DNA from: a virus
Virus record (IMG/VR): IMGVR_UViG_3300037247_001809
Location: 1-26,622 of that record
Direction: 5' to 3' (one strand)
DNA length: 26,622 nt
The translations under genes were made by a program, and so were the position numbers. The first letter of the stretch is position 1; every line of letters starts with the position of its first letter. The notes under the pieces were generated by a model. That model saw nothing but the letters and a program-made list of their open reading frames with translations. It made no database searches and had not been told where the DNA came from. This document shows, one piece after another, positions 7,136 through 24,186 of this stretch.

Positions 7136-7579
7136 TCACAGGCATCCCGTGCGGCCCCCGATGACCTGCGGACTGAGACATCGGTTGGTCGACCATCGGT
7201 CGTTGCACTCGCCCGGAATATCCAGGGTCGTGGCGGCTACCATCGCGGCTTCCTGGCCCGCTAGCATCCGTCGCCCGGTAGCATCCCACTGTTCCTGCTG
7301 CCGCCACGTAGGCGCAGGATAAGGGATTCCGCGCGGCCCGTCGCTGTAGCGTCCCCAATGGCGGAAGTGGTGGGTGCGCGAGCAAATCCACCGAACTAGG
7401 GCGCCCTCTACACCTGCCCATCCTTGGCAGTACCAGGTCGTTTCATGCTTGCCAAAAGCACACAGCGCCGGGCCCACTTTGGGGCGCAGCCAACGCCCGA
7501 GGCGTTCGGCCAGCGGGTTCTTACTACTCACACCACCACGGAGCCCCAGGTCAAGATAGAAGCCGCTATCGGTCTTCAT
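7136..7579 (-). CDS. Uncharacterised Cys/His/Trp-rich phage protein (147 aa)
   Basis: Starts at ATG 7579 in an ATGA overlap with the stop of the DUF1360-like gene, which fixes the start; the longer frame to 7747 is a shadow. The protein is rich in Cys, His and Trp: ALCAFGKHETTWYCQGW (about residues 38-54), RWICSRTHHFRHWGRYSDG (about 62-80), followed by RGIPYPAPTWRQQEQWDATG. The CxxxxH and CxRxHH spacings could make a metal site. The last third (IPGECNDRWSTNRC...) is less ordered. No family is recognised. It is co-transcribed with two membrane proteins and a Cys-cluster protein, forming a small accessory block between the glycosyltransferase and the head-tail gene. Confidence 0.6.
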   Translation of the reverse strand: MKTDSGFYLDLGLRGGVSSKNPLAERLGRWLRPKVGPALCAFGKHETTWYCQGWAGVEGALVRWICSRTHHFRHWGRYSDGPRGIPYPAPTWRQQEQWDATGRRMLAGQEAAMVAATTLDIPGECNDRWSTNRCLSPQVIGGRTGCL

Positions 7580-7905
7580 TCGTGTCCTCCCCGGACCGCC
7601 CCGTCGATGGCTGAGGCCAGCCCCCATATGGCCAGCCCAACGACCACCTCCGGTCTGATCGCTAGGATGCCATACATCGCCCCCGCTGTCCACGCCGTCA
7701 TGCACCACACGCACCCGAAAAGGGCGCCGGGGAGTCGCGTTGGCCATACGGTCGCGTCCCCGTCCTCGTCATGCTCGACGCCGGCCAGGGCGCGGAGCCG
7801 GGTCACGAGGCCGAAGGGGCCCCGCTCGACCACCAGGAAGACGGCGATGCGCCAGGCGGCCAAGGCGGCCACGACGAGATCGAACATGGTATCCGGGGTA
7901 GTCAT
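7576..7905 (-). CDS. DUF1360-like membrane protein
   Basis: A 109-residue protein with two or three hydrophobic segments: DLVVAALAAWRIAVFLVVE (about 9-27), CVWCMTAWTAGAMYGILAI (about 65-83) and VVGLAIWGLASAIDGAV (about 87-103). The R-x-L/F start region, a basic and Asp-rich middle and the CxxCMTAWTAG motif at the second segment match DUF1360 proteins, which are small membrane proteins common in phages and Firmicutes; their function is unknown. It starts at ATG 7905 in an ATGA overlap with the Cys-cluster gene upstream and ends in another ATGA overlap, so it belongs to one coupled set. Confidence 0.75.
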   Translation of the reverse strand: MTTPDTMFDLVVAALAAWRIAVFLVVERGPFGLVTRLRALAGVEHDEDGDATVWPTRLPGALFGCVWCMTAWTAGAMYGILAIRPEVVVGLAIWGLASAIDGAVRGGHE

Positions 7906-8216
7906 AGCAAATATGCCTGGCCTTTCTCGTTCGTCACGTGGGCCGAGTGGGTGGCGTGGGTGATCTCATCTTCGCCCCGCGCGTGCATGGGGCAATAGTC
8001 CACACCATCCTCCTGGGGCACGCGGCAATCATCGCATAGTGGCTTGTCACACGTTCCCGTTTTACCTAGCGCTCCCATCGCTACCGTCGGGTAATCGCAC
8101 AGGTAGGCGGATACCTTCGCCACGCAGACGCCGCACGCCGTGATCGGCTTCGTGCTGTGGATGACCGCCCCACCGGTGCCGTCGCGGTTGAACAGGACGC
8201 ACGAATAGGTGGGCAC
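7902..8216 (-). CDS. Small Cys/His-cluster (zinc-binding-like) protein
   Basis: A 104-residue protein beginning at GTG 8216, whose G is shared with the stop of the glycosyltransferase gene (TAGTG). It has paired cysteines: CGVC (28-31), YLC (40), TCDKPLCDDC (about 56-65) and DYCPMHARG (about 73-81), a pattern seen in small zinc-ribbon-like phage proteins of the CDxxLCxxC...YCxxH type. It probably binds one or two zinc ions. The C-terminus (HATHSAHVTNEKGQAYLL) is His-rich. The biochemical role is unknown. Coupling to both neighbours suggests co-expression with the glycosyltransferase and the DUF1360-like protein. Confidence 0.7.
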   Translation of the reverse strand: MPTYSCVLFNRDGTGGAVIHSTKPITACGVCVAKVSAYLCDYPTVAMGALGKTGTCDKPLCDDCRVPQEDGVDYCPMHARGEDEITHATHSAHVTNEKGQAYLL

Positions 8217-11194
8217 TACGGCGGCGCCTGGGCCTTCCTCAACGCCGCCTCGATCACGGTCACCGCAGTGGGCCGGTTGGCCCCGGCCCTCTCTTTGGCG
8301 AGCATGATGGCCAACTCCTCCGACGGCATGCCCTTAGCGATCTTGTCGCGGAGTTCCTTGACCGTCGGATTCGGGCGAATGGACGGCTCGGGGTCCGGGG
8401 CCGGTGCGGTCACCGCCGCGGTCGGTGCCGGCGTCGGCTCAACGACCGGGGTCGGGGCCGGTGTGGGCGCCCCCGGTGCGGTCAGTTGGGGCGCCGGTGA
8501 GGAACCCGCCGCGAGTGCGTTTTCGTCAATCGCGGTGAATAACGGGGTTGAGCCCTCGTAGAAGGTGAGCAGCCCCGGCACGTCCGCCTCATAGACGAAC
8601 TTGCGGCGGTGGCTCTTGTTGTTGCCGAAGCGGTAGCGGGTCCCGGTCGACTGGCCTTTGTACTCGCGGGTCCCCTCGGAGAGTCCGTTGAATTGGACCG
8701 TCTGGTAACCGTCCGGTGCGCGGCCCTGGCTGGCGGCGGCGGTGCCGCCTCCCCCAACTGAGGGCGCCTTTGGGAATCGTTGACCGCCCCCACCGGGGCA
8801 TCCTCGACAAGCCATGAGTTTTTCTCCTCCCTCCCAGTATGGGCGCCATCGGTCCAGTATAGCCTCTTTGCCCTGTGCGAACGCCGCCATGTTCTCCTCC
8901 CGACGGAAGCCGGCGTTCTTGCGGTAGGTCCAGAGCGGCGCGGGGATTTTCGAGCCACAAATGCCGGCGCGGGCGAGCCGGAGATGGAAGTCCCAATCCT
9001 CCCAATGGTTGAGCTCCTCGTCGAATCCGCCGACGGAGCGCCACGCCGCGACGGGATAGAGCGCCGTGACCGCGTGTATCATGCCGTTAGTGAGCAGAAG
9101 GTTGGCGTCATATTCGGGCGGGTCATAGATCAGTGTCTTGTCCCCGAAGTCATCGACCCACTGCGAATAGATCACCCCGCCCACCGCCGCGGCCCCCACC
9201 ATCACCTCTAGCGCATCGGCCTGGAGGTAGTCATCCGCGTCCAGCGGGAGGAACCACTCCACCGTGGGGTCGAGCAGGCCGATGCCGACATTGCGGGCCT
9301 TGCCCGGCCCGAGCCGGTCCGCCAACCCGCCGCGATGCACCACGGTCGCCCATGGGTGCGGGACATGGAGCGGCTCGCCGGTGTCGTTAACCACGATGGC
9401 CTGCCACGCCCGATAGGACTGCGCCTCGACCGAATCCAGTGCGTCGATCAACAAGTCCGCATGACCCGGACCGACCGGTATCACGACACCGACCTTCGCG
9501 GGCTCCGCGGACGGGACGTTCCAACACAGGCCACCGTTGACATCCACGGGCGTCCCCGCGGCAACCCCGAAGGGCGTCAACGCCTTACGCCGGCTCCACG
9601 GATACCAGGCGGGGTAGTCGGGGCGCGGGTGGGCCCGGCTCATGGAGCCCTCGCGTTGGCGGTAAACCAGGGTGGGGCGCGAGGACACCTTTCGCGCATC
9701 GAACCCCAGGGAGGTCGCGCGGGTCCAGAAGTCCGCATCCTCCGACGTACGCCACCGCTTGCGATAACCGCCCGTGCGGTGCCACACGCGCCGACGATAC
9801 ATCGACGTGGAGGGGATTTGGTTGCGGCCCTGTAACTGGCTCACAAAGGCGAAGTCCTGGGGCCATCCCGAGACGCCCCCCCGGCCCACGGTCGAGTCGG
9901 GTGTCACCCCATCCTCTAGGACGAACCGCGCCGCCCCGTACGCGATGTCAAAGGTCCGGTCGGCATCCAGCGCGGCCGAAAGGCGTGACAGCGTGTCGGG
10001 GTCGATCATGTTGTCAGCGTCGACCGGGATGATGTAGCGGCCCCGGCTGGCCGCGATGCCCGCGTTGAGCGCGCCGGCGAGGTAGAGGTTCTCGGGGTTC
10101 GTCACCACGCGGACCCGGGGTTCCTCCTCGGCCAACGCGGCCGCCACGGTGGCCGTATCATCGGTGCTGGCATCGTCGACGATCACGGCCTCCCAATCCG
10201 GCTCCGATTGGGCCTGTAGGCTCCTGATCGTGTCCGGAAGGTGGCGGGCCAGGTTGTAGCACGGCACGATCACCGACACCTTGCGGGCATGGTAGGCTTC
10301 CGCCTTCGCCTCCCATACACCCATGTAGAGGTCCACATATCGGGCCATCGCGCGCTCCCACGTGAACTCGGCCAGGGCCTTCGCCCGTGCCGCCGCACCC
10401 ACGGCCTCGCGGTTTTCCAACGCCCACCGGATACCCTCGGCGAGGCCGTCAAGGTCGCCCACCGGGGCCAACCAGCCACTAACGCCGTGTTCGACGATCT
10501 CGCGCTGGCCGCCCCAATTCCAGCCCACGATGGGGACGCCGGCCGCCATCGCCTCGATGGTGCCGATGCCGAACGTCTCGCGGGTCGTGCATAGGTACAC
10601 GGCCGCATCCCTTACCCATTCGCGCGCCACCCCGTAGGGCAGTACGCCGGTTAGTTCCAAGTTGGAGACACCCTCGACGCCCAGGGTGGTGACGAAATGG
10701 AGATCGGGGTTTTGCCGCGCCAGGTTCATCACCGGCCCGGGGTCACAGATCGGGTCGACGCGATTCTTGTTCCACAGCACGTAGCCACCATTGGTCCCCG
10801 GTAGCCACTCTGACTCATCGATGCCGTGATAGAGGACCGTGGGGTTGAGCCACATCCCACGCCGCAACGCCTGCGCCACCCACTCCGATGGCGCGGTCAC
10901 ATGATCGGCCTGGCGCATCGCGTCGATGACTAGGCGGTTTAGATTGTGGGACCACTTGGACCAGTCATATTCGGCCCAATAGAGGCCATGGGTGTGGACC
11001 ACCCAGGGGACCTCAACCGGCACCGTCTTGGTGGCCACCGCGGCATGGGTGGCGATTAGGTCCGCGGCGCTCAATGTGTCGACCACCTCGACGCCCATCT
11101 TGGGCAGCCATATGCGCTGTGCTTCGACCACGCGGCGGATGCCGCCCTCGCCCTGGTCCTGGCCCTCGAACACCGGCTCGATGTAGACCTTCAT
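8216..11194 (-). CDS. Three-domain glycosyltransferase (GT4-like + GT2 + GT2) with phage-type C-terminal tail
   Basis: A 992-residue polyprotein-like enzyme. Residues 1-295 are a GT-B fold, GT4-like domain with the retaining E-x7-E motif (E206 and E214 in RETFGIGTIEAMAAGVPIVG). Residues 306-535 are a GT-A, GT2 domain (VSVIVPCYNLARHLPDTI; DxD at 391-393; SEDADFW at 484-490). Residues 567-790 are a second GT2 domain (VGVVIPVGPG; LDADDY 651-656; HWEDWDFHLRL 730-740). After a CRGC knuckle (797-800) come a small beta domain (about 828-880, TGTRYRFGNN, DVPGLL), a Pro/Ala/Thr linker (about 890-942) and a helical end (VKELRDKIAKG...). The tail resembles domains of phage structural proteins and could tether the enzyme. 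It probably transfers several sugars to one acceptor. It overlaps the methyltransferase gene by ATGA. Confidence 0.9.
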   Translation of the reverse strand: MKVYIEPVFEGQDQGEGGIRRVVEAQRIWLPKMGVEVVDTLSAADLIATHAAVATKTVPVEVPWVVHTHGLYWAEYDWSKWSHNLNRLVIDAMRQADHVTAPSEWVAQALRRGMWLNPTVLYHGIDESEWLPGTNGGYVLWNKNRVDPICDPGPVMNLARQNPDLHFVTTLGVEGVSNLELTGVLPYGVAREWVRDAAVYLCTTRETFGIGTIEAMAAGVPIVGWNWGGQREIVEHGVSGWLAPVGDLDGLAEGIRWALENREAVGAAARAKALAEFTWERAMARYVDLYMGVWEAKAEAYHARKVSVIVPCYNLARHLPDTIRSLQAQSEPDWEAVIVDDASTDDTATVAAALAEEEPRVRVVTNPENLYLAGALNAGIAASRGRYIIPVDADNMIDPDTLSRLSAALDADRTFDIAYGAARFVLEDGVTPDSTVGRGGVSGWPQDFAFVSQLQGRNQIPSTSMYRRRVWHRTGGYRKRWRTSEDADFWTRATSLGFDARKVSSRPTLVYRQREGSMSRAHPRPDYPAWYPWSRRKALTPFGVAAGTPVDVNGGLCWNVPSAEPAKVGVVIPVGPGHADLLIDALDSVEAQSYRAWQAIVVNDTGEPLHVPHPWATVVHRGGLADRLGPGKARNVGIGLLDPTVEWFLPLDADDYLQADALEVMVGAAAVGGVIYSQWVDDFGDKTLIYDPPEYDANLLLTNGMIHAVTALYPVAAWRSVGGFDEELNHWEDWDFHLRLARAGICGSKIPAPLWTYRKNAGFRREENMAAFAQGKEAILDRWRPYWEGGEKLMACRGCPGGGGQRFPKAPSVGGGGTAAASQGRAPDGYQTVQFNGLSEGTREYKGQSTGTRYRFGNNKSHRRKFVYEADVPGLLTFYEGSTPLFTAIDENALAAGSSPAPQLTAPGAPTPAPTPVVEPTPAPTAAVTAPAPDPEPSIRPNPTVKELRDKIAKGMPSEELAIMLAKERAGANRPTAVTVIEAALRKAQAPP

Positions 11195-11844
11195 GCTGCC
11201 TCCAAGCCTCTCAGCAGTTGGCGCCCCAAGAACTCGCTGTAGGCCGGCGGGACGGCCTGCGCGAGCTCGTGCGCGGTCATCCAGTCGATGCCCATCTGCG
11301 CCCGATGCCGGCCCACACCACCGTGATGGCCTGCCACACCACCCCAGCCATTGAGGCCATGGCGACGCTTTGATAATGAAGCACGGCCCGCCGAGATAAT
11401 CCAGTTATGCTTGCGGTGGCCTGGCGCCAGCATCAGCAACGGCGATTCGAAGGCTCGATGCCGATAAATGGACAGACCAAGGGCATACCCACACAGGACG
11501 ACCGGCGCGAGCATGTCCCACTTGGCGTCGTCCACGTTCTCAATGATGTAGGGCAGGCCGGATGCGACCACCACGTCCCTCGTGGGTGGGATGGACCGCC
11601 AATAAACCTTGTCCTTCAGCCAGGGAAGATACCGCAACCGGCTGTAAAATTGGCACGGCGGGCTCGCCCACACCGCGTCGAAGCCGCTCAGGTTCACGGT
11701 CAGCGCGTCCTGGCGCACGAAGGCAAATGGATACCGGGGCTGCTTCACGATGTCGAAGCCCACGACGTCGAAGCCCGCGCGGTGCAGGCCCATCGCGGCG
11801 CCACCAGCACCGCAGAAGAGGTCGGCTATGAGCGGGCGTTTCAT
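11191..11844 (-). CDS. DNA (cytosine-5-)-methyltransferase, compact
   Basis: Transfers a methyl group from S-adenosylmethionine to C5 of cytosine in DNA. Conserved motifs appear in order: motif I DLFCGAGGAAMGL (8-20), motif IV SPPCQ with catalytic Cys at about residue 64, motif VI ENV (about 102-104), a motif VIII-like YRHRAFES, and motif X VPPAYSEFLGRQLL near the C-terminus. At 217 residues it is well below the usual 300-400, with a very short target recognition region; this is common for orphan phage enzymes but leaves specificity unpredictable. No restriction endonuclease is adjacent, so it probably protects phage DNA from host restriction. It is the only gene in the cassette not obviously tied to carbohydrate or surface chemistry. 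Confidence 0.9.
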   Translation of the reverse strand: MKRPLIADLFCGAGGAAMGLHRAGFDVVGFDIVKQPRYPFAFVRQDALTVNLSGFDAVWASPPCQFYSRLRYLPWLKDKVYWRSIPPTRDVVVASGLPYIIENVDDAKWDMLAPVVLCGYALGLSIYRHRAFESPLLMLAPGHRKHNWIISAGRASLSKRRHGLNGWGGVAGHHGGVGRHRAQMGIDWMTAHELAQAVPPAYSEFLGRQLLRGLEAA

Positions 11845-11869
11845 CTTTGTCTCTCATACCGTTTCTTTT

Positions 11870-12148
11870 TCACGCTATCTCCTCGCCGTACCAGACTCGC
11901 AGCGCCTCTTCGTATGCCCTCACGATTTCAGGCGCCGTGAAGATACCCGCGCCTCCGTGCTGTTCGACACACTCGTAATGCCACCGGCTTATGTGCATCT
12001 CCTGTTCCTTATTCAGTGGGGAATGACTACCACGTCTATACGGAGTAGTGGCCATCATGGCAAGGCTGTAGGCGTAGCCTTCCACACTTCTAAGCCTCGC
12101 TGCTTCCCGCCGCTTCCGCGCCCATTTTCGCAAAGGCTCTCGGCTCAT
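11870..12148 (-). CDS. Small basic uncharacterised protein (92 aa)
   Basis: Starts at ATG 12148, six bases after GAGGAA, a good ribosome binding site. The N-terminal 20 residues are strongly basic (SREPLRKWARKRREAARLRS) and could bind nucleic acid or membrane; the rest is helical with HISRWHYECVEQHGG and EIVRAYEEALRVWYGEE. No family is recognised. It is the first minus-strand gene downstream of the inserted plus-strand gene. The DNA here is more AT-rich than the adjacent glycosyltransferase gene, suggesting a separate origin. The overlapping minus frame 12145-12372 is antisense to the plus-strand gene and was not used. Confidence 0.6.
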   Translation of the reverse strand: MSREPLRKWARKRREAARLRSVEGYAYSLAMMATTPYRRGSHSPLNKEQEMHISRWHYECVEQHGGAGIFTAPEIVRAYEEALRVWYGEEIA

Positions 12149-12162
12149 GCTATTTCCTCAAC

Positions 12163-12213
12163 CACGGGAGATGAGACGCTTTCCTCGTGGCCCACCATGC
12201 TACACTCCCCGTG
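12163..12213. repeat. Imperfect inverted repeat between divergent starts
   Basis: CACGGGAG (12163-12170) and CTCCCCGTG (12205-12213) are inverted copies with one bulged base, flanking 34 bases. They lie between the divergent starts at 12148 (minus) and 12224 (plus). They could be an operator or a transcript hairpin; nothing further supports either. Confidence 0.3.
12198..12206 (+). promoter_or_regulatory. Possible extended -10 element for the plus-strand gene
   Basis: TGC followed by TACACT resembles an extended -10 (TGn-TATAAT, four of six matches). No -35 is evident, and the predicted transcript start would fall on the Shine-Dalgarno at 12213-12218, so support is weak. The gene is antisense to the surrounding operon and needs some promoter of its own. 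Confidence 0.25.
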
Positions 12214-12223
12214 GAGGTGCGCC

Positions 12224-12682
12224 ATGTCCGACGCTGTGGGGGAACTGTTCGAGATCAATGAGGCCCCCGGAACCACTATCAACATCCCCGTCGCGGGCAA
12301 CTTCGTCCAGTGGACCACGTCGGTCGCAGGCGAGGGCGGCCCCTCCGATATCGTCGAGGTCGATGCGGCCAATGATCAGTTGGTCGTCGGCGCGGCCGGG
12401 GGCGGCCTCTACGAGGTCCATGCTGGCATGTCCCTGTCGGGCAGTGCCAACAGCCTCAAACAGGGGGCAATCTTCCTCAACGGGGTCCGCCAGCAGAAGT
12501 TGGAGTTCAACCGCCAAATTGGGGGCGGTATGGACCAGGGCTTCGTCGGTATCAGCGGCCTGATCCGACTGGTCGCTGCGGACATAGTCGACCTCAGGTT
12601 CACCGCCGACGGGAACGGCGACACCGTGGTGCTGCATCACGTTGACCTGTTCATTCATGCGCTCATCAGGGACATCGCCTAG
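12224..12682 (+). CDS. C1q/TNF-like jelly-roll virion protein on the opposite strand
   Basis: The only credible plus-strand gene. A 152-residue protein starting at ATG 12224, five bases after GGAGGT. The sequence shows the beta pattern of C1q/TNF-like jelly-roll domains common in phage tail and capsid decorations: NIPVAGNFVQWTT, QLVVGAAGGGLYEVHAGMS, GAIFLNGVRQQKLEFNR, VAADIVDLRFTADGNGDTV. It probably forms trimers and binds a surface ligand. Upstream in-frame sequence to 11750 is antisense to real minus genes and is excluded. Its stop TAG shares the palindrome CTAG with the stop of the convergent GT2 gene (12679-12682). The orientation implies a separate insertion with its own expression control. 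Confidence 0.82.
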   Translation: MSDAVGELFEINEAPGTTINIPVAGNFVQWTTSVAGEGGPSDIVEVDAANDQLVVGAAGGGLYEVHAGMSLSGSANSLKQGAIFLNGVRQQKLEFNRQIGGGMDQGFVGISGLIRLVAADIVDLRFTADGNGDTVVLHHVDLFIHALIRDIA

Positions 12683-13416
12683 CTCGCCGCGGCCCGGTCG
12701 GCCTCGAACTTGTCCGCCACCTGGGCGCCCGTCATGGCGCTGTTCTCCATCCACCATTTGAACGACTGGTGGTCGCCGATGTGTTGAAACGTCGTGTCGT
12801 ACGTCAGCCACGCGGGCCACAGGATGTCCGGCCCCTCCTTGGCGTTGAACCGGCCACAGTACCACAGCTCGGTCTGCCCCGGCTGGAGCCCGACCTTGTA
12901 GTCCCCGTAGGCGTCGTAGAAGCGTCGGTGCCTCAGGGCCGCGTTGCCGCTGAACACGTAGGTGTCTGAGCCCTTTTTGAGCCGCCACCATAGCTTACCC
13001 GCCCCGGCACACGATATGGCCTCCAAACCGGCCGACAGGCGCCCCAGGCGTACCATCCCGACCGTCTCGTCCTCGGCCATTACCTGAACGCATGGGCGCA
13101 GGTCCAGCGTGTCGGGCAGGATCCAATCGTCCTCGAGGTGTAGCCAGTAGTCGGCGCGGCCCAACGCGCCCTTGATTCCGAGATTCATCGAACGCCCCAC
13201 CCCCTCCTGGCGGGCGTCGGTGTGTTCAACCGAGTACGATGGGCCGATCTCATCGAGTAGCCGCTTCACGTACTCGGGCCCGCTGCCGTCGTCGGCGATG
13301 TGAAACCCGATGTTGGGGTAGTCGACCCGTTCACGGACCGACTTGATCGTCTCCAACGCCAGTTCGAGGCGCCGGTAGGTGAAGATCGTGGCGATGACGG
13401 GTGGCCAGTCGGTCAT
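12679..13416 (-). CDS. GT2-family glycosyltransferase
   Basis: A 245-residue GT-A fold glycosyltransferase. The start at ATG 13416 is fixed by an ATGA overlap with the upstream Cys-rich gene; the longer frame to 13518 is rejected. Motifs: IATIFTYRRLELALETIKSV (about 8-27), the nucleotide-binding IADDGSG (about 39-45), and YWLHLEDDWILP (about 90-101), whose EDD replaces the DxD metal site. Later segments, NAALRHRRFYDAYGDY and WYCGRFNAKEGPD, contain the probable acceptor side. It probably transfers a hexose from a nucleotide sugar. The substrate cannot be read from sequence. It belongs to the carbohydrate cassette and converges on the plus-strand gene. Confidence 0.85.
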   Translation of the reverse strand: MTDWPPVIATIFTYRRLELALETIKSVRERVDYPNIGFHIADDGSGPEYVKRLLDEIGPSYSVEHTDARQEGVGRSMNLGIKGALGRADYWLHLEDDWILPDTLDLRPCVQVMAEDETVGMVRLGRLSAGLEAISCAGAGKLWWRLKKGSDTYVFSGNAALRHRRFYDAYGDYKVGLQPGQTELWYCGRFNAKEGPDILWPAWLTYDTTFQHIGDHQSFKWWMENSAMTGAQVADKFEADRAAAS

Positions 13417-13634
13417 GGTGTCTTGTTGCCGTTCTTGCCGATTTGTCTGAAGCCTAGGATGATCCGTGACGCACGAGAGGTGGCGATAGGCGGCTGTTGA
13501 GGTCGCTCCTCGCCACATGTATCACACTTATAGTCGCTGGGCGCATCTTTACAGCCAGAGAGGGTGCACCGTTTGACTTCCCAGCAATACCAGCAAAGGT
13601 GATTGTGCATATCGCCCATCTCACTACGCTCCAT
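13413..13634 (-). CDS. Small Cys-rich zinc-ribbon-like protein (73 aa)
   Basis: A 73-residue protein with CWYC (14-17), C23, C28 and CDTC (37-40), forming two possible zinc knuckles, followed by a basic C-terminal tail (SRASRIILGFRQIGKNGNK). It overlaps the methyltransferase gene by 11 bases at its start and the GT2 gene by ATGA at its end, which supports translation. The function is unknown. It is one of several small Cys-cluster proteins in this window, and could be a regulator or a structural minor protein. Confidence 0.6.
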   Translation of the reverse strand: MERSEMGDMHNHLCWYCWEVKRCTLSGCKDAPSDYKCDTCGEERPQQPPIATSRASRIILGFRQIGKNGNKTP

Positions 13635-14202
13635 CCGCGTGGCTCCTGAATACTGCGGACCAGCCAGCCCGGTAGAGCGGTGGCGTCTCGCCCCACATCG
13701 CGTCGCACGCCTGCCGGACGCCGGGATACCGCTGTGGCGCCGTCGTGCCGTCGTAGTCGTGGATGAACATGAGGCCGCAATGGTCGCGCCAAGCGTACAC
13801 GTCCGTGACTACGCTGTCGAAGCTGTGGTCCGCGTCGATGATGACCAGAGAGTTTTGGGACATACGTCGTTGCCAGTGTCGGCCAGCCAGGGCTGAGTCG
13901 TCGTTGATCTGGACGTAGCGAGGATTCCCGCTATCGAACTGGAGGTCAACCTCGGCATTTTTCAGGGCCTGAAGTTCCCAGTTGAGGGCCTGTTGGTCGT
14001 TGTCGATCGACCAGAGGCCCACGTCATCACGAGCACCGAAGATCGCCAGGGCCATCGTGCCCGAGCCAGCACCGAGCTGGACGACGCGTGGATGATTATC
14101 CAGTTCGCGGAGCACCTCAATGAGCAGGTCCAGGTCCGCGCGGCAGCACATCTGACGCGAGTTGGCCAGCCCATACGCCGCCTCGATCACTGGGTTGGGC
14201 AT
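13624..14202 (-). CDS. Class I SAM-dependent methyltransferase (Methyltransf_24-like)
   Basis: A 192-residue protein with the Rossmann S-adenosylmethionine motif VQLGAGSGTMALAI (about 41-54), the acidic ribose-binding strand SIDNDQ (about 65-70), and the IIDADHSFDSVVTDVYAW and FIHDYDG strands typical of Methyltransf_24 proteins. These enzymes often act on sugars or small acceptors in polysaccharide and antibiotic clusters, so O-methylation of a glycan is plausible here. It starts at ATG 14202, overlapping the preceding methyltransferase by 16 bases. The surrounding DNA is somewhat lower in GC than the head genes. Confidence 0.82.
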   Translation of the reverse strand: MPNPVIEAAYGLANSRQMCCRADLDLLIEVLRELDNHPRVVQLGAGSGTMALAIFGARDDVGLWSIDNDQQALNWELQALKNAEVDLQFDSGNPRYVQINDDSALAGRHWQRRMSQNSLVIIDADHSFDSVVTDVYAWRDHCGLMFIHDYDGTTAPQRYPGVRQACDAMWGETPPLYRAGWSAVFRSHADGA

Positions 14203-14720
14203 GATCGTCTCCTATACAGGAAGAATAGGTGCGCCCCCTCGGTGACGCTATCCACGACTTCGAGGTCGAACGGTTGAGCGATGGCCTCGAACCAGTCGGG
14301 CAGATAGCGGAGGGTATCGATGGGGAAGCGATGAAGCGGGAAGCCTGGCATCACCGTGTGGGTGATTAGGTGGCCGCCTGGAACGATCAAGGCTGCCAGG
14401 TTCTCCATGAAACTGTACGGATTGAGGATGTGCTCCAGGATCGCCTGAGTGATGACCAGGTCGGATTGCTCCTGCTGGAGGGAGCACGGAGCTTCCTCGT
14501 TGAAGTCCCATACGTGGTCGGCGTCCGTGAGGGCGACAGTCGAGACCAACGAGGCACCGATCTCTTCACCGACCATGGCTCCAGTTGCCTTGGTCTCGCC
14601 GGCGAACAATACCCGCCGGTGGTCGACATCTTTCGCCCACTGGATGATCCGGCCGTGGTAGAAGCCCGAATCGTTGGGCACACCTTTGAGGGCCTTCAGT
14701 GGAGCCAGCTCGCGCGTCAC
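14187..14720 (-). CDS. SAM-dependent methyltransferase-like protein with degenerate motif I
   Basis: A 177-residue protein starting at GTG 14720 in a GTGA overlap with the kinase-methyltransferase gene. The C-terminal half matches Methyltransf_11/23-type folds: SDLVITQAILEHILNPYSF (about 85-103), then LAALIVPGGHLITHTV and FPIDTLRYLPDWFEAI, the last being typical of methyltransferases in sugar clusters. The N-terminal region where the Gly-rich SAM loop should lie (RVLFAGETKATGAMVG) lacks a standard GxGxG, so it may be a non-canonical binder or an inactive partner of one of the adjacent methyltransferases. Confidence 0.72.
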   Translation of the reverse strand: MTRELAPLKALKGVPNDSGFYHGRIIQWAKDVDHRRVLFAGETKATGAMVGEEIGASLVSTVALTDADHVWDFNEEAPCSLQQEQSDLVITQAILEHILNPYSFMENLAALIVPGGHLITHTVMPGFPLHRFPIDTLRYLPDWFEAIAQPFDLEVVDSVTEGAHLFFLYRRRSCPTQ

Positions 14721-15817
14721 CGTTGGACCTCCCAGACAGTCCGGCTGCCAGGCCGGCCGGTGACTGGGAAGGTGGCGAGCGCCTTGACTGTTGAACCTCC
14801 CAGCCTGTGGAGCATCGTCCGTATGTCCTCGTCGGTCTTCAGGAACTCAGGACCAGGCCCGTCGCCGTAGAGCTGGTTCTCAAAGAAGAGAACGCCAGCC
14901 TCCGCGATCACTTTGGCTAGGACCTCCTCAGCTCGCGCTAGGCCGTGGTCCTTGACGACGTACGACCAGGTCGAGAACATCACCGCCACATCAGACTCGT
15001 ACGAGCACTCGTCAATGTCCAGGTTCGCCAGCGTGATCTGCCCAAAGGGAAAGTCGGCCCATGCCATCTGGCCAATCGCGATGCTATCCTCGCCGGTGCG
15101 GAATCCGCCGCGGTCGATGCCCACCGCGTTCATCCCCTCGGCGGCCGCTAGTGCAACGAAGTCGCCCTGAAAGCACCCAAGGTCGAGGAATGTCTTGCCC
15201 CGGAGGGGCAGCGTACAGTTGCCGGCCGCCCCCAACGCCCAGAGGACAGCCCGCCACCGCCGCGCCACTCGGGGCGTGTCGCAGAAGCCATCCGGGCCCA
15301 GCGTCCCCTCGATGTGCTGCATGAGCAAGTGCGAGTCGGACCAGGGTTGCCTCTGCAACAGCACATCGCCAATTATGTTCGCATCCTGCCAGTCGATCAC
15401 CCATGGCCAGTCGTCGCGGGTTATCACGTTGGTCCCCCGGAGGTCGCCGTGCCTGAGCCCCCGCGACCGGATAGTGGCCAGCATGCGGACGCAGTTGCGG
15501 CGCCACGCCTCCATGTCCCGCGGGCTCTCCATCACGCCCACGTCGGTCTGCCACAGCACGCCCTCATCGATGTCGGTCAGGTCCGGCGTGTAGCCGCTAT
15601 CCGCCATGGCGTCCAGCATGGCCGCCTCGTTGTGTAGGGCCGCTAGATTGAGGTCGAAGAGATCTTCACCGGCCCGGTCTGCGTGCTGGGTGTCCTTCTC
15701 GTGCAGGGGCGCCTTCCTGATGGTGTAGCGGAGGCCGTCCCAGTGGCGCTCGACCGCCATGCCCTGGTGGCCGCCGATCAGTCCGAGAGGCCGTTCGTCC
15801 ATATGGGTTTCTTCCAT
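14717..15817 (-). CDS. Bifunctional protein: small-molecule/sugar kinase-like domain fused to a SAM methyltransferase
   Basis: Residues about 20-160 form a protein-kinase-fold (RIO/LPS-kinase-like) domain with the complete catalytic set: K35 in YTIRKA, E64 in HNEAAM, catalytic loop HGDLRGTN (H123, D125, N130) and metal-binding D142 in VIDWQDA. Residues about 205-366 form a class I methyltransferase with motif I FLDLGCFQGDF (210-220) and acidic strand VGID (232-235). Kinase plus methyltransferase in one chain is known from WbdD, which phosphorylates and then methylates the end of O9-type polymannose to stop elongation; there the methyltransferase comes first. Neighbouring glycosyltransferases make a chain-capping role attractive. 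It overlaps its upstream neighbour by 40 bases; ATG at 15802 behind GGAAGA is an alternative start. Confidence 0.8.
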   Translation of the reverse strand: MEETHMDERPLGLIGGHQGMAVERHWDGLRYTIRKAPLHEKDTQHADRAGEDLFDLNLAALHNEAAMLDAMADSGYTPDLTDIDEGVLWQTDVGVMESPRDMEAWRRNCVRMLATIRSRGLRHGDLRGTNVITRDDWPWVIDWQDANIIGDVLLQRQPWSDSHLLMQHIEGTLGPDGFCDTPRVARRWRAVLWALGAAGNCTLPLRGKTFLDLGCFQGDFVALAAAEGMNAVGIDRGGFRTGEDSIAIGQMAWADFPFGQITLANLDIDECSYESDVAVMFSTWSYVVKDHGLARAEEVLAKVIAEAGVLFFENQLYGDGPGPEFLKTDEDIRTMLHRLGGSTVKALATFPVTGRPGSRTVWEVQR

Positions 15818-16470
15818 AGCTCCATCACCTTGTCCCTGATGGGCCCGTGGACGCCCCCGAACTTGGAGGCGCGGGTCCGCGAATACGTCTCGGCGTGCCG
15901 CCGGTACCAGTAGGGCGGCGTCTTCGATTCCACGTGGAACATAGCGCCCGCGTCGGGATGAGTCAACAGGATGGAGACCAGCACGGTGTCACCCTGCCCC
16001 ACCGCGGATTCGACCGGGAACCCACCCGACGAACGCCACATCGCCTTGTGAACCATCGCGGCGTTACATGCCAGGGCCTGCTGCTCACCGTCGCTGTACT
16101 GCACGTCGACCCAGTAGTAGCCGGGCCGTTTCCCGCTGGCCTCGTAGGCGGCCAGGCAGTCCTCCAGGCAGTGAGGCTCCAGGCGGTCGTCCGAGCCCAG
16201 CATGAAGACCAGATCGTTCTGGGCCAGCGCGACCCCGAAGTTGAAGCTGTGCGCGACGCCGGAGAGCCACGGCGTCCGCCAGATCGTCCTGTCGATCAGC
16301 CGCCCCTGCTGGGTCGCATACTTGCCGTGGGGCTCGGGCAAGTGGGCCTGGTCGTCAATGAGGAGAAGTTCCGAGGGTGGCAGGGTCTGCGCCCGGACGC
16401 TGTCGATGGCGTCCTGGAGGTACTTGCGGTAGATGGGATCCGGGCCGACCGGGATGACGACGGTGATCAT
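15778..16470 (-). CDS. GT2-family glycosyltransferase
   Basis: A 230-residue GT-A enzyme. Start ATG 16470 overlaps the radical SAM stop by ATGA, so the longer frame to 16551 is rejected. Motifs: MITVVIPVGPDP at the N-terminus, AIDSVRAQTL, LLLIDDQ (nucleotide-binding strand) and LVFMLGSDDRLEP with the DxD-like SDD that binds metal and sugar nucleotide. The later NAAMVHKAMWRSSGGF is the typical acceptor-side loop of GT2 enzymes. The N-terminal signature is close to that of the third domain of the 992-residue protein (VGVVIPVGPG), so these domains may be related by duplication. Sugar specificity is unknown. Confidence 0.87.
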   Translation of the reverse strand: MITVVIPVGPDPIYRKYLQDAIDSVRAQTLPPSELLLIDDQAHLPEPHGKYATQQGRLIDRTIWRTPWLSGVAHSFNFGVALAQNDLVFMLGSDDRLEPHCLEDCLAAYEASGKRPGYYWVDVQYSDGEQQALACNAAMVHKAMWRSSGGFPVESAVGQGDTVLVSILLTHPDAGAMFHVESKTPPYWYRRHAETYSRTRASKFGGVHGPIRDKVMELWKKPIWTNGLSD

Positions 16471-17462
16471 AGGAAGTCCTCGTGCATAAGGGGCTTTTGC
16501 ATGTCCTCCAGGAAGCGGTTGAGGTGATCCCCGCGGCAGAACATCGGGCACCGGGCCCAGTTGACCACATTGTCTGGCCGCCGCGCCAGAATTGTTGCCA
16601 GCGAGTCCGAGTGCAGATCACCGAGATGGGCCTCCGGTTGCTGACGAGTATGGCAGCACCAGGTGACCTGCCCGTTAGCCTTGACCACACTGACCCACCA
16701 CCCGAACCCACACGTCGTATAGGGCCGTTCACGCTCGTGGAAGCGGCTATAGGCCAGGGCGCCCATGACCTCGAACGTATCCGTGTTGAAGACCCGCCGC
16801 AGTGCGTCTATGTCGACCGGGGTTCGGTCACCAAGGAAGGGCCGAAAATACAGATAGTCCACCCCAAAGTCTCGGACAGTCCGGCACGCATCTGCGAGCC
16901 CATCAATAGTGACGGGGCCCGTCAGGTAGGCTACTCCCAGGGTGGGGCTCTTCGCGCCCCGAGCCGTGCGCCCTTCGACGAGGGCCCTAATCCCATCAAC
17001 GGCGCGCTGGAATCCATCCATCCCATGGGTGAGCTCATACATTGCGGCGTCGCTGGCGTCGAGTGAGCAGCGCACCCATGTGCAATGTTCCATGACCGCC
17101 GCGACCAACGCCGGACGGTTATCGAACATCATGGCGTTCGTAACCAGTCCCGTCGCAAGGTCATGGGCCGATGCGACGCAGATCAGATCGGCCAAGTCGG
17201 GATGCAGGGTTGGCTCACCCCCGCCCGTGAAGACGACTGATCGCACCCCTAGACCGGCAGCCTCCTCGAGGAGCTTCTTGACCATGTCTGTCTCCAGCAT
17301 GGCGTTCGCGGTTCCCCTACCGCCAGCGCATCCGGGGCACAAGTTGTTGCACGCATCCGTCAAGTCGATGTCCAGCGTGAGGGGAACGATCGGCTCCCCC
17401 TGAGCGTAGGAGCGAAGCCGTTCGGGGTGACGAAGTGCCTTGTTGTTATAGAAGGTCAGCAT
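16467..17462 (-). CDS. Radical SAM enzyme with SPASM-like C-terminal cysteines
   Basis: A 331-residue protein. The [4Fe-4S] site is C38-x3-C42-x2-C45 in DACNNLCPGC; the SAM-contact motif GGGEPTLHPDL is present (about 80-90). The C-terminal third has extra cysteines (TTCGFG, TWCCHT, RCPMFCRGDH), consistent with a SPASM or twitch auxiliary cluster as in peptide- or sugar-modifying radical SAM enzymes. It starts at ATG 17462 behind AAGGA. Its partners are glycosyltransferases and methyltransferases, so a radical modification of a sugar, lipid carrier or small peptide is possible. No precursor peptide gene is evident next to it. The substrate is not deducible. Confidence 0.88.
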   Translation of the reverse strand: MLTFYNNKALRHPERLRSYAQGEPIVPLTLDIDLTDACNNLCPGCAGGRGTANAMLETDMVKKLLEEAAGLGVRSVVFTGGGEPTLHPDLADLICVASAHDLATGLVTNAMMFDNRPALVAAVMEHCTWVRCSLDASDAAMYELTHGMDGFQRAVDGIRALVEGRTARGAKSPTLGVAYLTGPVTIDGLADACRTVRDFGVDYLYFRPFLGDRTPVDIDALRRVFNTDTFEVMGALAYSRFHERERPYTTCGFGWWVSVVKANGQVTWCCHTRQQPEAHLGDLHSDSLATILARRPDNVVNWARCPMFCRGDHLNRFLEDMQKPLMHEDFL

Positions 17463-17493
17463 ATCGTTCCTTAGTTGTCTTGCTGGGCCGCCT

Positions 17494-17547
17494 TCACCAC
17501 ACGGCCCTGCCTAGCATGCCGCCCGCGCCGGTCACCACGATGGTCAT
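17494..17547 (-). pseudogene. Remnant N-terminus of an RmlD-like NAD(P)-dependent sugar reductase
   Basis: A 17-codon frame from ATG 17547 (ATGA overlap with the upstream gene) encodes MTIVVTGAGGMLGRAVW and then stops. TGAGGMLGRAV is the first beta-strand and dinucleotide loop of RmlD/dTDP-4-dehydrorhamnose reductase-type enzymes, normally about 290 residues. Thirty-one bases later the radical SAM gene begins. This reads as an internal deletion that removed nearly all of a sugar-nucleotide reductase while keeping its coupled start. Confidence 0.6.
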
Positions 17548-17786
17548 GGCGTCACCTTGTCGACGATGTCGTATATCGACAGCTCCACAGGCTCTGTCCA
17601 ATAGGTTCGATCATCCGGCGTTGGGTCCCGAGGTTGCGTGACTAGCACATCATCATCGAGGGTCGCTTCCTCCGGTCCGAAGGATACGCCTTCAACATCG
17701 TCGGACATGGTCTCCAGCCACTTGAGGAATAGCGTGTTGGCTTTCCGTACTGCGTCTGCGTCCGACTCAGTGTCGACCAATCGCAT
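17544..17786 (-). CDS. Small acidic uncharacterised protein, probably frameshifted at its N-terminus
   Basis: An 80-codon frame from ATG 17786 encodes an acidic, helical protein (SDADAVRKANTLFLKWLE, FGPEEATLDDDV, ELSIYDIVDKVTP). A second start, ATG 17829, lies in an ATGA overlap with the upstream 88-residue gene and encodes MTTYLVTGQYRQDIHAI before stopping after 20 codons in a frame one base away. Joined, the two would give the common small-protein pattern of a short beta-hairpin followed by an acidic DTESDADAVRKA helix. The intact ancestor therefore probably began at 17829 and has suffered a one-base indel near 17790, or the assembly has. The 17786 start lacks a convincing ribosome binding site. 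Function unknown. Confidence 0.5.
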   Translation of the reverse strand: MRLVDTESDADAVRKANTLFLKWLETMSDDVEGVSFGPEEATLDDDVLVTQPRDPTPDDRTYWTEPVELSIYDIVDKVTP

Positions 17787-17825
17787 GGATGTCCTGACGA
17801 TACTGCCCGGTCACTAGGTACGTGG

Positions 17826-18092
17826 TCATGTCTCAGCCTTGACCTCATCCTTCGACGCCTCATCGAATCGCTCCCAGGGTATCTCCACCACGTCGGCGGT
17901 CCGCCCCACAACGTATCGTATCGTCCGTCTGACGAAGTAGGCACCCGCGTTGGGGCCTGACGACTCGACCGGGTGCCGCCCGCTGTTGTTGATGACCTCG
18001 ATCGACAAGAGCTGGTAGCCCCCTGCCAGCCATTTATTGACTTTCCCCGGTGAAAGCGCCTGGACCTCGACGATGCCTTCGTAACGGTTCAT
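17826..18092 (-). CDS. Small uncharacterised beta-rich protein (88 aa)
   Basis: Starts at ATG 18092 in an ATGA overlap with the dehydratase stop and ends in an ATGA overlap with the next start at 17829. The sequence VNKWLAGGYQLLSIEVINN followed by FVRRTIRYVVGR resembles a family of small phage and bacterial proteins with a short helix and two or three beta-strands, but I cannot assign a function. The tail is acidic (RFDEASKDEVKAET). Its context suggests it is only carried along in the cassette operon. Confidence 0.65.
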   Translation of the reverse strand: MNRYEGIVEVQALSPGKVNKWLAGGYQLLSIEVINNSGRHPVESSGPNAGAYFVRRTIRYVVGRTADVVEIPWERFDEASKDEVKAET

Positions 18093-19051
18093 GTCCCCAT
18101 CCCCTCCCTGATCATCTTGGCCATATCGTCGACCCCTATCCAGTGGTCCGGTGTGGCGGATGTGTAGAGACCCGGCGGGCGCGTCGCCTCGTCCGTCGTA
18201 CCCGCGGTAGGCGAATAAAGGTGCATGATGCGGTCCATGGAATCCCAGTCCGCGTACGCTACCTCCTCGGGCGCGAGTAGGTCCTCGTGGACCTTCTCCC
18301 CGTGTCGATGCCCGATGGTTTCAAACTTGGGCTGCGCCACCCCGGCGACGAGCGCGCACGCCCTGGCCACCGTCACCATATCAGTCGCGGCGAGCCGCGG
18401 CACGATGATAGTGCCAGTGCCCCCGTCTCCGGTCCCACGCATGGCCCGTCTGATTAGCTCGACGGCCCGCCCCACCGATAACCAGAAGCGCGTCATGTCG
18501 GGGTTTGTCAACGTGATGCGCCCCTCCTTGGCCTGCCGGAGGAAGAAGGGTATTACCGACCCAGTCGAGCCGATCACATTGCCATACCGCACGGTGGTGA
18601 AGTGGGTGGCGCCCACCGCGTCCGCCTCCTGGAATAGCCGCTCCATGACCCGCTTGGTGAGCCCGTACACGTTGATGGCGCGGCACGCCTTGTCCGTGGA
18701 TATGCCGATCACGCGCTCGACGCGGGCCCGCATGGCCGCGGTGGCGACGTTCTCGCTCCCCGTGATGTTGGCCGCCACGGCCTGGCCCACCTGGGTTTCC
18801 GCCTGGGGTACGTACTTGAACGCTGCGGCGTGGATGACTACGTCATGGCCGGTGATGGCGGTGGAGAGACGGTCAAGATCGCGCACGTCGCCGAGGACGT
18901 AATCGTGTTCGGGGAACTCGGCGCGGACCGGGGCGTGCTTGCCCTCGTCGCGCGAATAGATGGTGAAACGCCAATCGGGGTGACGGGTGCGGGCATCACG
19001 GAGAAGGGCCCGTCCCAAGAAGCCCGCGCCGCCGGTCACGAAGATACGCAC
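18089..19051 (-). CDS. Nucleotide-sugar 4,6-dehydratase/epimerase, PseB/CapD (Polysacc_synt_2) type
   Basis: A 320-residue extended short-chain dehydrogenase/reductase. Residues 6-13 TGGAGFLG bind NAD(P); HAAAFKYVPQAE (75-85), ISTDKA (117-122) and Y129-x3-K133 (YGLTK) form the active-site region of the FlaA1/PseB/CapD group; RYGNVIGSTGSVIPFF, TRFWLS and HGEKVHEDL are family signatures. Such enzymes convert UDP-GlcNAc to a 4-keto-6-deoxy sugar, the entry step for modified amino or deoxy sugars. The downstream aminotransferase or reductase expected for a full pathway is missing here, although the RmlD relic suggests one was lost; the host may supply it. It starts at GTG 19051 behind a strong AGGAGGT (19057-19063) and is the first gene after the structured intergenic segment. 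Confidence 0.88.
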   Translation of the reverse strand: MRIFVTGGAGFLGRALLRDARTRHPDWRFTIYSRDEGKHAPVRAEFPEHDYVLGDVRDLDRLSTAITGHDVVIHAAAFKYVPQAETQVGQAVAANITGSENVATAAMRARVERVIGISTDKACRAINVYGLTKRVMERLFQEADAVGATHFTTVRYGNVIGSTGSVIPFFLRQAKEGRITLTNPDMTRFWLSVGRAVELIRRAMRGTGDGGTGTIIVPRLAATDMVTVARACALVAGVAQPKFETIGHRHGEKVHEDLLAPEEVAYADWDSMDRIMHLYSPTAGTTDEATRPPGLYTSATPDHWIGVDDMAKMIREGMGT

Positions 19052-19214: not shown

Positions 19215-20729
19215 CTACGCCGGCAGGTTCCAGTCGCTAAAGTGCGACGGGCCGGCGCGGGACGTTTCGCCACCGTCCACGAAGTACGGGTCAGCCGGGA
19301 ACGGGTCCCTGGTGTGCTGTAACGGCGCATAGCGGATGTTCTGGATACGCCCGGCCAATTGCGGCGTTCGCAGGATGACCCGCGGCTCGATCTTCGCCAA
19401 CCACTGCACACACCAGTTGAGGGGCGGCTTGGTGTGCCACAGGTAGCGGCCGCCATCCGACCAGTAGAACGCCCCCAGGCGCCCGTCCTGAACGGCCAGG
19501 ATAGCGCCCTGGGTGTAGTCCAGGTATTCCATGTAGGTGGCCGCGTAGCCGCCCACCACCGACATGGGGATGAAATACATATCCGAGGCGAACTCGCCCG
19601 CGCCGATGTTGGCGTTGTCGGCGTCGGTTTCCTCATTGATGCCGTCATCCAGCACCACCGGCACTTGGGTGCCGTCGATGAGGAGGTAGTTGCCATTCCG
19701 CATGCTGTCACGCATGCGAATCTGCTCGGCCGCGTCGACGTTGGCCCGCGCCTGGGTATCGGCGGCGCGGAACTGGCACCGCCACGAGATGTAAGCGCAT
19801 GGCCACACCGCGGTCAACTCGTAGAACAACTCCTGACGCATGGCGATCACCCACGTGGCGGGGTTGAGGTTCATGCGGTCCGCGTTGTGCCGGAGGAACC
19901 GGAACAGGTACGTGACCACCTCAACGATGTCCGCGTTGGCCGCGAGATCGTCAACCAGGGCGTAGTTGAAATCCTTGAGGTCCGAGTCCAGAGAGGGGCA
20001 GTTAATCCCCGTGATCGCGTCGACCTTGCCCGTCCCAATCAGGATGTCCAGCCCAGGGAACTCCTTGTACCCGCCGCCCGCCGTGTTGTTGGCGGGGTTG
20101 CCGATGTACAACTGCTGGATGAGTTTGTTCTGGAAGCTGATGCCCACCGATTGCATCGCGTTCTGGACCTCACGTTGGAGGCTGAACCCGCCCGGTAGGT
20201 TCTGCTGGATGACCCCGCCAGCCTGTTCGAGCAAGGGCTCGTTGAGCATGCGGAGGTCGAGGAGTTCGCCGCGGTCGGTCTGTTGACCGATGCGGTTTAG
20301 CTCCAACTCCTTGGTCATAAAGCAGTAGCGGCCGAACGCGGCGGTTTGGAGACACGACTTGCCCAGGCCCGCGGTTTGGCAGTCGTCGCACACCCCATCG
20401 GGGTCGGTGCCCGTGTCGGCCTGGAACCCCGTGAGGTACGGGAACAACGGGTCCGTCCGCATGCTCGGCGTCGCGGGCAACATCCCGATTAGGCCACGAG
20501 GCTGGACCCGGGTCGAGATGACATCGCGTTCGAGGCCGGAGACGCCGAAGATGCCCCCCGGGCCGGACATATAGTTGGTCGTCGGCGTGCCCGTCGGCGT
20601 GGTGTGCTTGAACCCGAGCGTGGCCAGGTCCTTGCCGGCGTCCCACGAGGGAGCCGCCCCGGCCTTGGCCAGGATGCCGGCTAGCTGTTGCGCCACCTTC
20701 GCGGCCATGTTGTCAGTTGCGCTCGTCAT
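19215..20729 (-). CDS. Major capsid protein (HK97-like fold inferred)
   Basis: A 504-residue protein immediately downstream of the protease-scaffold gene, the canonical major capsid position. The N-terminal region (LPATPSMRTDPLFPYLTGF) is followed by an N-arm/E-loop-like region and helices (REVQNAMQSVGISFQNKLIQ, about residues 185-205). The A-domain-like stretch WVIAMRQELFYELTAVWP and the segment GNYLLIDGTQVPVVLDDGIN (about 346-365) are typical of capsid proteins of this type. Cysteines at about 113, 116 and 125 (GVCDDCQTAGLGKSC) may crosslink or bind metal. It is longer than the usual 300-400 residues, perhaps with an inserted domain. It has its own extended -10 promoter and a GGAGG ribosome binding site about 9 bases from ATG 20729, fitting high expression. 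Confidence 0.88.
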   Translation of the reverse strand: MTSATDNMAAKVAQQLAGILAKAGAAPSWDAGKDLATLGFKHTTPTGTPTTNYMSGPGGIFGVSGLERDVISTRVQPRGLIGMLPATPSMRTDPLFPYLTGFQADTGTDPDGVCDDCQTAGLGKSCLQTAAFGRYCFMTKELELNRIGQQTDRGELLDLRMLNEPLLEQAGGVIQQNLPGGFSLQREVQNAMQSVGISFQNKLIQQLYIGNPANNTAGGGYKEFPGLDILIGTGKVDAITGINCPSLDSDLKDFNYALVDDLAANADIVEVVTYLFRFLRHNADRMNLNPATWVIAMRQELFYELTAVWPCAYISWRCQFRAADTQARANVDAAEQIRMRDSMRNGNYLLIDGTQVPVVLDDGINEETDADNANIGAGEFASDMYFIPMSVVGGYAATYMEYLDYTQGAILAVQDGRLGAFYWSDGGRYLWHTKPPLNWCVQWLAKIEPRVILRTPQLAGRIQNIRYAPLQHTRDPFPADPYFVDGGETSRAGPSHFSDWNLPA

Positions 20730-24111: not shown

Positions 24112-24186
24112 CTACGCCTCTCCTACGGCGAAGGTGTTAAGCTCGAAGCCCTTGCATACCGGCTGACCGTAGCCGTATATATTCAT
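24112..24186 (-). CDS. Possible 24-residue mini-protein coupled to portal
   Basis: ATG 24186 overlaps the portal stop as ATGA and opens 24 codons (beginning MNIYGYGQPVCKGFEL) ending TAG three bases before the propeller ATG. The coupled start argues for translation. It may be a leader peptide or the stub of an eroded gene. No family recognised. Confidence 0.4.
   Translation of the reverse strand: MNIYGYGQPVCKGFELNTFAVGEA

Follow-up and report, generated by a model that had tools for sequence, protein, structure and literature searches.

A probable virion-glycosylation locus with a nested glycosyltransferase gene and exchangeable sugar genes in an uncultivated clade of tailed phages

Few phages are known to glycosylate their virions, and the way in which glycosyltransferases (GTs) find virion proteins is an open question. 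The window analyzed here, a 26,622-base IMG/VR fragment of a tailed phage, carries a group of sugar enzymes inside its late structural operon. What these enzymes act on, and whether they belong together, was addressed by comparing the window with its relatives. Judged from sequence, it is somewhat probable that this is a virion-glycosylation locus of a clade of uncultivated tailed phages, made of a nested core gene for a GT and a late protein, and of exchangeable sugar cargo.

The late operon lies on the minus strand. In order of transcription it encodes portal-MuF (24183-26354), a beta-propeller-like repeat protein, neck, a protease-region protein, capsid, the cassette of sugar genes, a DUF1360-like protein, connectors, a tail protein with a C-terminal beta-propeller, and tape measure. 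The portal-MuF, tape measure and neck identities are backed by Pfam and PHROGs. The capsid gene is recognized by no HMM, and neither the capsid profile nor the connector profile has a sequence match in the PDB. An AlphaFold2 model of the capsid protein, built from a 24-sequence alignment (pLDDT 74, pTM 0.72), was searched against the PDB with Foldseek and matched many HK97-fold phage capsids (E 5.8e-11, probability 1.00), which settles its identity. The first-pass annotation had placed the sugar genes between the capsid and head-tail genes, and with these matches the placement holds.

Two other proteins of the operon have beta-propeller features. The tail-region protein at 3451-4971 (~500 aa) is conserved in the clade and ends in a Ycf48/BNR-like beta-propeller (E 7e-16 for its profile in the PDB). 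The repeat protein at 23494-24108, with portal on one side and neck on the other, carries LKSF.SPG....GLAWDGRTLWH repeats and is 40% identical to its counterpart in the closest relative, G001, versus 76-78% for its neighbors.

The features of the locus are listed below in order of transcription, with the oppositely oriented gene at its place.

19215..20729, minus strand: major capsid protein (HK97 fold), the upstream limit of the locus (AlphaFold2 and Foldseek)
18089..19051, minus strand: CapD/FlaA1-type UDP-sugar 4,6-dehydratase, PseB-like (Pfam Polysacc_synt_2, E 7e-70)
17826..18092, minus strand: 88-aa ORF without a counterpart in G001
17544..17786, minus strand: 80-aa ORF
16467..17462, minus strand: radical SAM/SPASM enzyme (rSAM) with a CX3CX2C motif (Pfam, E 1.8e-15)
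15778..16470, minus strand: GT2 family glycosyltransferase GT2b (Pfam, E 7e-13)
14717..15802, minus strand: KinMT, a fusion of an APH/RIO-like kinase and a methyltransferase, 366 aa (Pfam)
14187..14720, minus strand: MT2, class I methyltransferase, absent in G001 (Pfam Methyltransf_23, E 9e-5, under the cut-off)
13624..14202, minus strand: MT1, class I methyltransferase (Pfam Methyltransf_24, E 2e-5, just under the cut-off)
12679..13416, minus strand: GT2 family glycosyltransferase GT2a (Pfam, E 3.5e-10)
12224..12682, plus strand: 152-aa protein on the opposite strand within the cassette, 89% amino acid identity to G001
11870..12148, minus strand: 92-aa ORF
11191..11844, minus strand: orphan C5-cytosine DNA methyltransferase, not a sugar enzyme (phrog_363, E 4e-29)
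8216..11194, minus strand: three-domain glycosyltransferase (GT-B, GT2, GT2) with a fused C-tail, 992 aa (Pfam and NCBIfam)
8816..8837, minus strand: Shine-Dalgarno region of the internal start, ctgggagggaggagaaaaactc-ATG (-11.4 kcal/mol; kept in 55 fusions)
8216..8815, minus strand: C-tail, the nested gene, 199 aa (MACRGC...), conserved across the clade, with a free-standing homologue in L050
7902..8216, minus strand: 104-aa Cys-rich ORF 3' of the GT gene
7576..7905, minus strand: DUF1360-like protein with two TM-like segments
5645..6919, minus strand: conserved head-tail region protein, the downstream limit of the locus

The enzyme families named in the first-pass annotation are present on the minus strand between 8216 and 19051, as matched by Pfam, PHROGs and NCBIfam; the MT1 and MT2 calls rest on weak Pfam matches under the curated cut-offs. 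Its description of the genes as mostly joined by ATGA/GTGA overlaps was overstated: these 4-nt overlaps account for four of the 11 junctions, and at the rest the genes either overlap by more (16 and 25 nt) or stand 25-530 nt apart. Its gene list, correct for the enzymes it named, overlooked the C5-methyltransferase and the plus-strand gene, and omitted the two small ORFs downstream of the dehydratase and the C-tail domain with its own start signal. Since it contains a DNA methyltransferase and an opposite-strand gene, the cassette is not wholly glycan-related. The plus-strand gene has a homologue at the matching place in G001 and a weak match to DUF7244 as its only match.

Several of the assignments can be made narrower. 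The dehydratase matches FlaA1 in the PDB (2gn4, E 8e-51) and scores 227 bits against the NCBIfam PseB equivalog cut-off of 407.75, so it is assigned to the CapD/Polysacc_synt_2 family only. GT2b starts at 16470, not 16551, and has an ATGA overlap with rSAM. MT1 is also present in L020, L027 and others, KinMT is present in eight distinct phages (window included), and GT2a is the locus's commonest accessory GT, with 19 copies in the first set of relatives.

Scans of 2.9 million viral contigs left, once near-duplicates were removed, 94 unique relatives, some of them the two ends of one contig. The GT-based scan can find GT carriers only; the scans built on capsid and connector are free of this bias, and they added L050, L078 and L060, whose intervals hold no GT. 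In INPHARED, no match was found for the capsid, MTP, KinMT or C-tail, and a tblastn search of its 50,697 phage records with the three-domain GT matched 16 records, none covering at least 80% of the query. Scans of genome contigs for hosts gave no confirmed relative.

The closest relative, G001, has 51,348 bases, and its genome is probably complete because its ends overlap by ~127 bases. Its amino acid identity to the window is 77% for the PseB-like dehydratase, 95% for rSAM, 72-74% for GT2b, 69% for KinMT, 67% for MT1, 91% for GT2a and 71% for the GT gene. The rSAM gene is 94% identical in nucleotides, versus 70-80% for most backbone genes, which indicates recent exchange. G001 is without MT2 and the C5-methyltransferase and has another methyltransferase, and the earlier suggestion of one system, taken as a fixed one, is unsupported.

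Farther out in the clade the site stays and the cargo changes. At this site G003 and G004 (capsid 52%) carry a methyltransferase, a GHMP sugar kinase, GT2a and a GalE-like epimerase along with the GT gene. Cargo in other relatives includes a DegT aminotransferase, an RMNT/CmcI-type O-methyltransferase, a sugar C-methyltransferase, RmlD, a PIG-L deacetylase, a formyltransferase, a GNAT acetyltransferase, sulfotransferases, a GFO/IDH/MocA oxidoreductase and an FkbM methyltransferase; the annotated cargo of divergent relatives belongs mostly to NDP-sugar or glycan-decorating families. The capsid-to-connector interval is shortest in L050 (0.9 kb), measures 2.7 kb in L031 and L034 (where the GT gene stands alone) and is longest, at 12.3 kb, in the window and L030. 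The three-domain GT is the near-constant member of the locus, and every homologue from the GT-based scan lies in this late operon. GTs are encoded together with late structural genes, between capsid and connector, in the window and its relatives, and in 47 of 56 relatives the DUF1360-like gene separates the GT gene from the connector.

That the position is kept across the whole uncultivated clade supports the earlier suggestion of a glycan-modification locus in a late operon. The expectation that the gene set would keep together is borne out for the three-domain GT and usually for a GT2a-like enzyme, but most of the other genes are replaced in distant relatives. Such partial, independent replacement refutes a single invariant pathway and leaves a modular glycosylation locus unrefuted. 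As read from these sequences, what is constant in the cassette is its place in the genome; its cargo can be exchanged, and it does not amount to a single set pathway.

Some relatives have further genes or inserts at or near the locus. In L030 (2439-4529), an intein with a LAGLIDADG endonuclease splits the PseB-like dehydratase (Pfam Intein_splicing, LAGLIDADG_2). The portal-MuF gene of G001 has an in-frame insert of ~314 aa between residues 707 and 708 (L004:5651-6594), which is intein-like, starting with Cys and ending VHN|C; the window has none. At the locus itself G001 also encodes a secreted, dockerin-like protein (L014:253-963; DLDGDGITEDINGNGFFDFADV) and a LuxR-type HTH protein (972-1304). 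In L047, an IS605 OrfB/TnpB-like gene (11484-12932) lies directly 3' of the capsid gene, and the GT gene is absent or rearranged in the fetched stretch.

The near-constant gene is a fusion of GT domains with a different kind of protein. Its N-terminal domain is assigned to GT4/GT1 and is followed by two GT2 domains, and the catalytic motifs (EX7E, DxD, ED-type) are kept in 18 homologues. The best PDB match is a tandem GT-A chondroitin synthase (E 8e-52), with GT4-type enzymes matching also. Chondroitin synthase K4CP (PDB 2z86) likewise has tandem GT-A domains on one chain, but the phage GT has an additional GT-B domain ahead of these and the late-protein C-tail after them. Across the clade, this C-tail is a distinct stretch of ~80-250 residues after the GT domains, starting M-(A/G/S/P)-C-x-x-C or similar. 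It stands behind one GT2 domain in L051, L052, L045 and L070 and behind three GT domains in most others. In L050 it is a gene of its own, of 171 aa, with capsid on one side, DUF1360 on the other and no GT, and L078 and L060 are alike in this. L112 and L138 encode the GT and C-tail on separate genes, so tethering is not essential in all members. The DUF1360-like gene comes after the C-tail, and the two often overlap by 4 nt. Where the C-tail lies, and its occurrence in genomes with no GT, suggest that it is a late assembly or virion protein.

An AlphaFold2 model of the C-tail shows with confidence a small beta domain at residues 31-100 and, beyond a Pro-rich linker, a helical C-terminus; fold searches gave nothing significant in PDB or BFVD. 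The C-tail ends in L078, L112, L027 and L040 vary, some being helix-hairpin-helix-like (e.g. LKGMGDKRLKDLRLALNGI) and others another helical module. A weak match to an HSTV-2 protein (E 0.065) was dropped; no 140-aa gene adjoins the HSTV-2 capsid gene.

At the boundary between GT and C-tail, the start codon carries a Shine-Dalgarno (SD) in nearly all fusions tested, L117 and L140 being weak cases; in the window the site is ctgggagggaggagaaaaactcATG at 8815. In the first set of sequences, the mean SD duplex energy was -9.0 kcal/mol, versus -2.6 at 363 other in-frame ATGs of the same genes (p 7.5e-14), and in the second set (n=34) it was -8.5 versus -2.3 kcal/mol (p 2.6e-19). L043 and L091, which are one contig, are counted in both sets, and the first set includes the free-standing L050. 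The mean at the starts of long ORFs was -6.6 kcal/mol. Over 55 fusions the mean was -8.9 kcal/mol, compared with -6.3 when the eight upstream codons were shuffled synonymously (p 1.7e-9). Because the sequences are related, these p values are descriptive only; the effect size and its replication are clear. ATG makes up 93% of the boundary start codons, the rest being GTG or TTG. For the window gene, synonymous shuffles average -10.4, meaning that its amino acids alone already favor a Shine-Dalgarno, and so the evidence for the signal is the clade-wide pattern, not the window alone. An internal start by chance was rejected by the three controls (two in-frame-ATG sets and the synonymous shuffles). 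The strong signal at the boundary suggests that one gene probably makes both the C-tail alone and the GT-tethered form.

How might such a gene work? We tentatively propose, as a possibility that falls somewhat short of probable, that in this clade the nested gene puts GTs onto assembling particles, its N-terminal extension consisting of one to three GT domains, and that the exchangeable sugar genes set a phage-specific coat, which would make this a phage serotype locus. From one mRNA, the internal Shine-Dalgarno and start would yield the late protein alone (the short form, ~200 aa) along with the GT fusion (the long form). The long form would most likely enter the assembly of the short form, placing GTs on the forming particle, where these tethered GTs and the small GT2 enzymes would build a short glycan on a virion protein. 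Upstream cargo genes would alter the sugar; in the window these are the UDP-sugar 4,6-dehydratase, the two methyltransferases, the radical SAM enzyme and KinMT, which may cap the chain with a methyl phosphate in the manner of WbdD. The enzyme families, the constant position, the turnover of cargo, the fusion and the start signal within it are shown by sequence. We infer that the short form is produced and is a virion protein, that the GTs are tethered through it, that the acceptor is a virion protein, and that the reactions run in this order.

Nested genes of this general form have precedents. In phage lambda, the protease C and the scaffold Nu3 are nested: a start inside the enzyme gene also yields its C-terminal part by itself, which works in particle assembly. 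Lambda C and Nu3 interact (PMC3224144). The in-frame internal start with a ribosome-binding site at a domain boundary is present here too, but the enzyme part is a glycosyltransferase, and general searches showed no homology between the C-tail and Nu3. The C-terminal domain of the CTP1L endolysin is also produced alone and binds the full-length enzyme (PMC4777826); there, as would be the case here, a phage enzyme and its C-terminal domain alone come from one gene, but CTP1L is a lysis enzyme and the C-tail occurs enzyme-free in relatives. In lambda C/Nu3 and CTP1L the two forms can assemble together, and we infer that here the long form would carry GTs into the short-form assembly. No report of a nested GT/structural gene in phages was found in the open-access papers searched, and one may exist elsewhere.

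The WbdD comparison concerns the cargo. In E. coli O9a, WbdD adds a phosphate to the terminal sugar and a methyl group to that phosphate (PMC3482155). A 7-sequence KinMT profile searched against the PDB had the WbdD methyltransferase as its best match (E 8e-10) and also matched Rio2 kinase (E 1.4e-4). Both proteins have a kinase and a methyltransferase on one chain, with a WbdD-type methyltransferase domain in KinMT, but the order in KinMT is kinase-methyltransferase and in WbdD methyltransferase-kinase-coiled coil. The KinMT kinase is RIO/APH-like, closest to RIO/Bud32, and 366 aa leaves no space for WbdD's long C-terminal coiled coil. Given what WbdD does, and that the KinMT methyltransferase resembles it most, a methyl-phosphate cap may reasonably be guessed at here.

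The nearest known biology is the virion glycosylation of mycobacteriophages, where glycans are reported on capsid and tail-tube subunits (Freeman et al. 2023, as cited in PMC12619734 and PMC13313380). There phage-encoded GTs are proposed to decorate virion proteins, and a role for a methyltransferase is an inference of PMC13313380. Phage-encoded GTs are the likeness; the locus described here differs in that its main GT is joined to a late protein that has a start of its own, and in the exchange of its NDP-sugar genes.

The same enzymes might instead alter the host's surface glycan, by serotype conversion or receptor masking, so that progeny are not re-adsorbed or superinfecting phages are excluded. 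The middle GT domain's best PHROGs matches are labeled GtrB-like O-antigen conversion, and the dehydratase and KinMT resemble bacterial surface-polysaccharide enzymes. However, the flippase GtrA and membrane-anchored GtrB/GtrC of gtr-type conversion were not seen: no cassette enzyme has a TM-like segment, and no flippase, polymerase or transporter is among them. Enzymes free of TM-like segments would sooner suit an acceptor in the cytoplasm, for instance a virion protein, than lipid-linked glycans of the host. The genes also lie in a late structural operon, away from immunity and integration genes, and the late-operon protein to which the main GT is joined is found without GTs in relatives. 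We regard action on the host surface as unlikely and, given the missing TM segments, flippase and polymerase and the fusion of the main GT to the C-tail, favor action on the virion. The C5-cytosine DNA methyltransferase raises another reading, in which phage DNA is hypermodified, with bases glycosylated and decorated further to evade restriction; phage GTs that glycosylate DNA are known (cited in PMC12619734). Against this, no hydroxymethylase, base-kinase or thymidylate-synthase-like gene was recognized in the window, a 26.6-kb fragment where G001, the nearest relative, measures 51 kb; the GTs resemble those that act on polysaccharides and proteins, and the CapD/PseB dehydratase, RmlD, DegT aminotransferase, RMNT/CmcI and formyltransferase are typical of NDP-sugar pathways. 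With the C5-methyltransferase missing from the closest relative as well, modification of DNA seems very improbable.

Virion glycosylation, the preferred reading, does not depend on the fusion having a role. The GT/C-tail fusion could be an assembly convenience, in which the stop between neighbors was lost, translation of the C-tail begins at its own start codon, and the fused product does nothing in particular; such an account concerns tethering only and is compatible with virion glycosylation. The strong internal SD would fit, as would the separate genes of L112 and L138, but ~50 diverged relatives, among them phages with one, two or three GT domains, have retained the in-frame fusion, and a neutral fusion would be expected to be broken often by stops or frameshifts. 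We find this account of the fusion doubtful, though it deserves some weight. The broader thought that unrelated cargo has gathered at a permissive site between capsid and connector, with no common function, draws on the mosaic identities seen in rSAM, on the C5-methyltransferase and opposite-strand gene in the window, and on the TnpB and pectate-lyase-like genes in some relatives. Most annotated cargo of divergent relatives nevertheless serves sugar activation, transfer or decoration and lies beside a conserved GT, which makes a mere collection of passengers quite improbable.

The locus is real and conserved; its enzyme families are ordinary, and its modularity and nested GT/late-protein gene are unusual. 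Together the exchangeable sugar genes and the fusion with its own start signal suggest that these viruses sugar-coat their own particles. The conserved internal start predicts two products from one gene, one of them bearing GTs, which could be checked in any cultivated relative. If true, sugar genes exchanged at one constant place in the late operon would let virion glycans vary in the way that bacterial O-antigens do, with consequences for adsorption, defence evasion and immune recognition.
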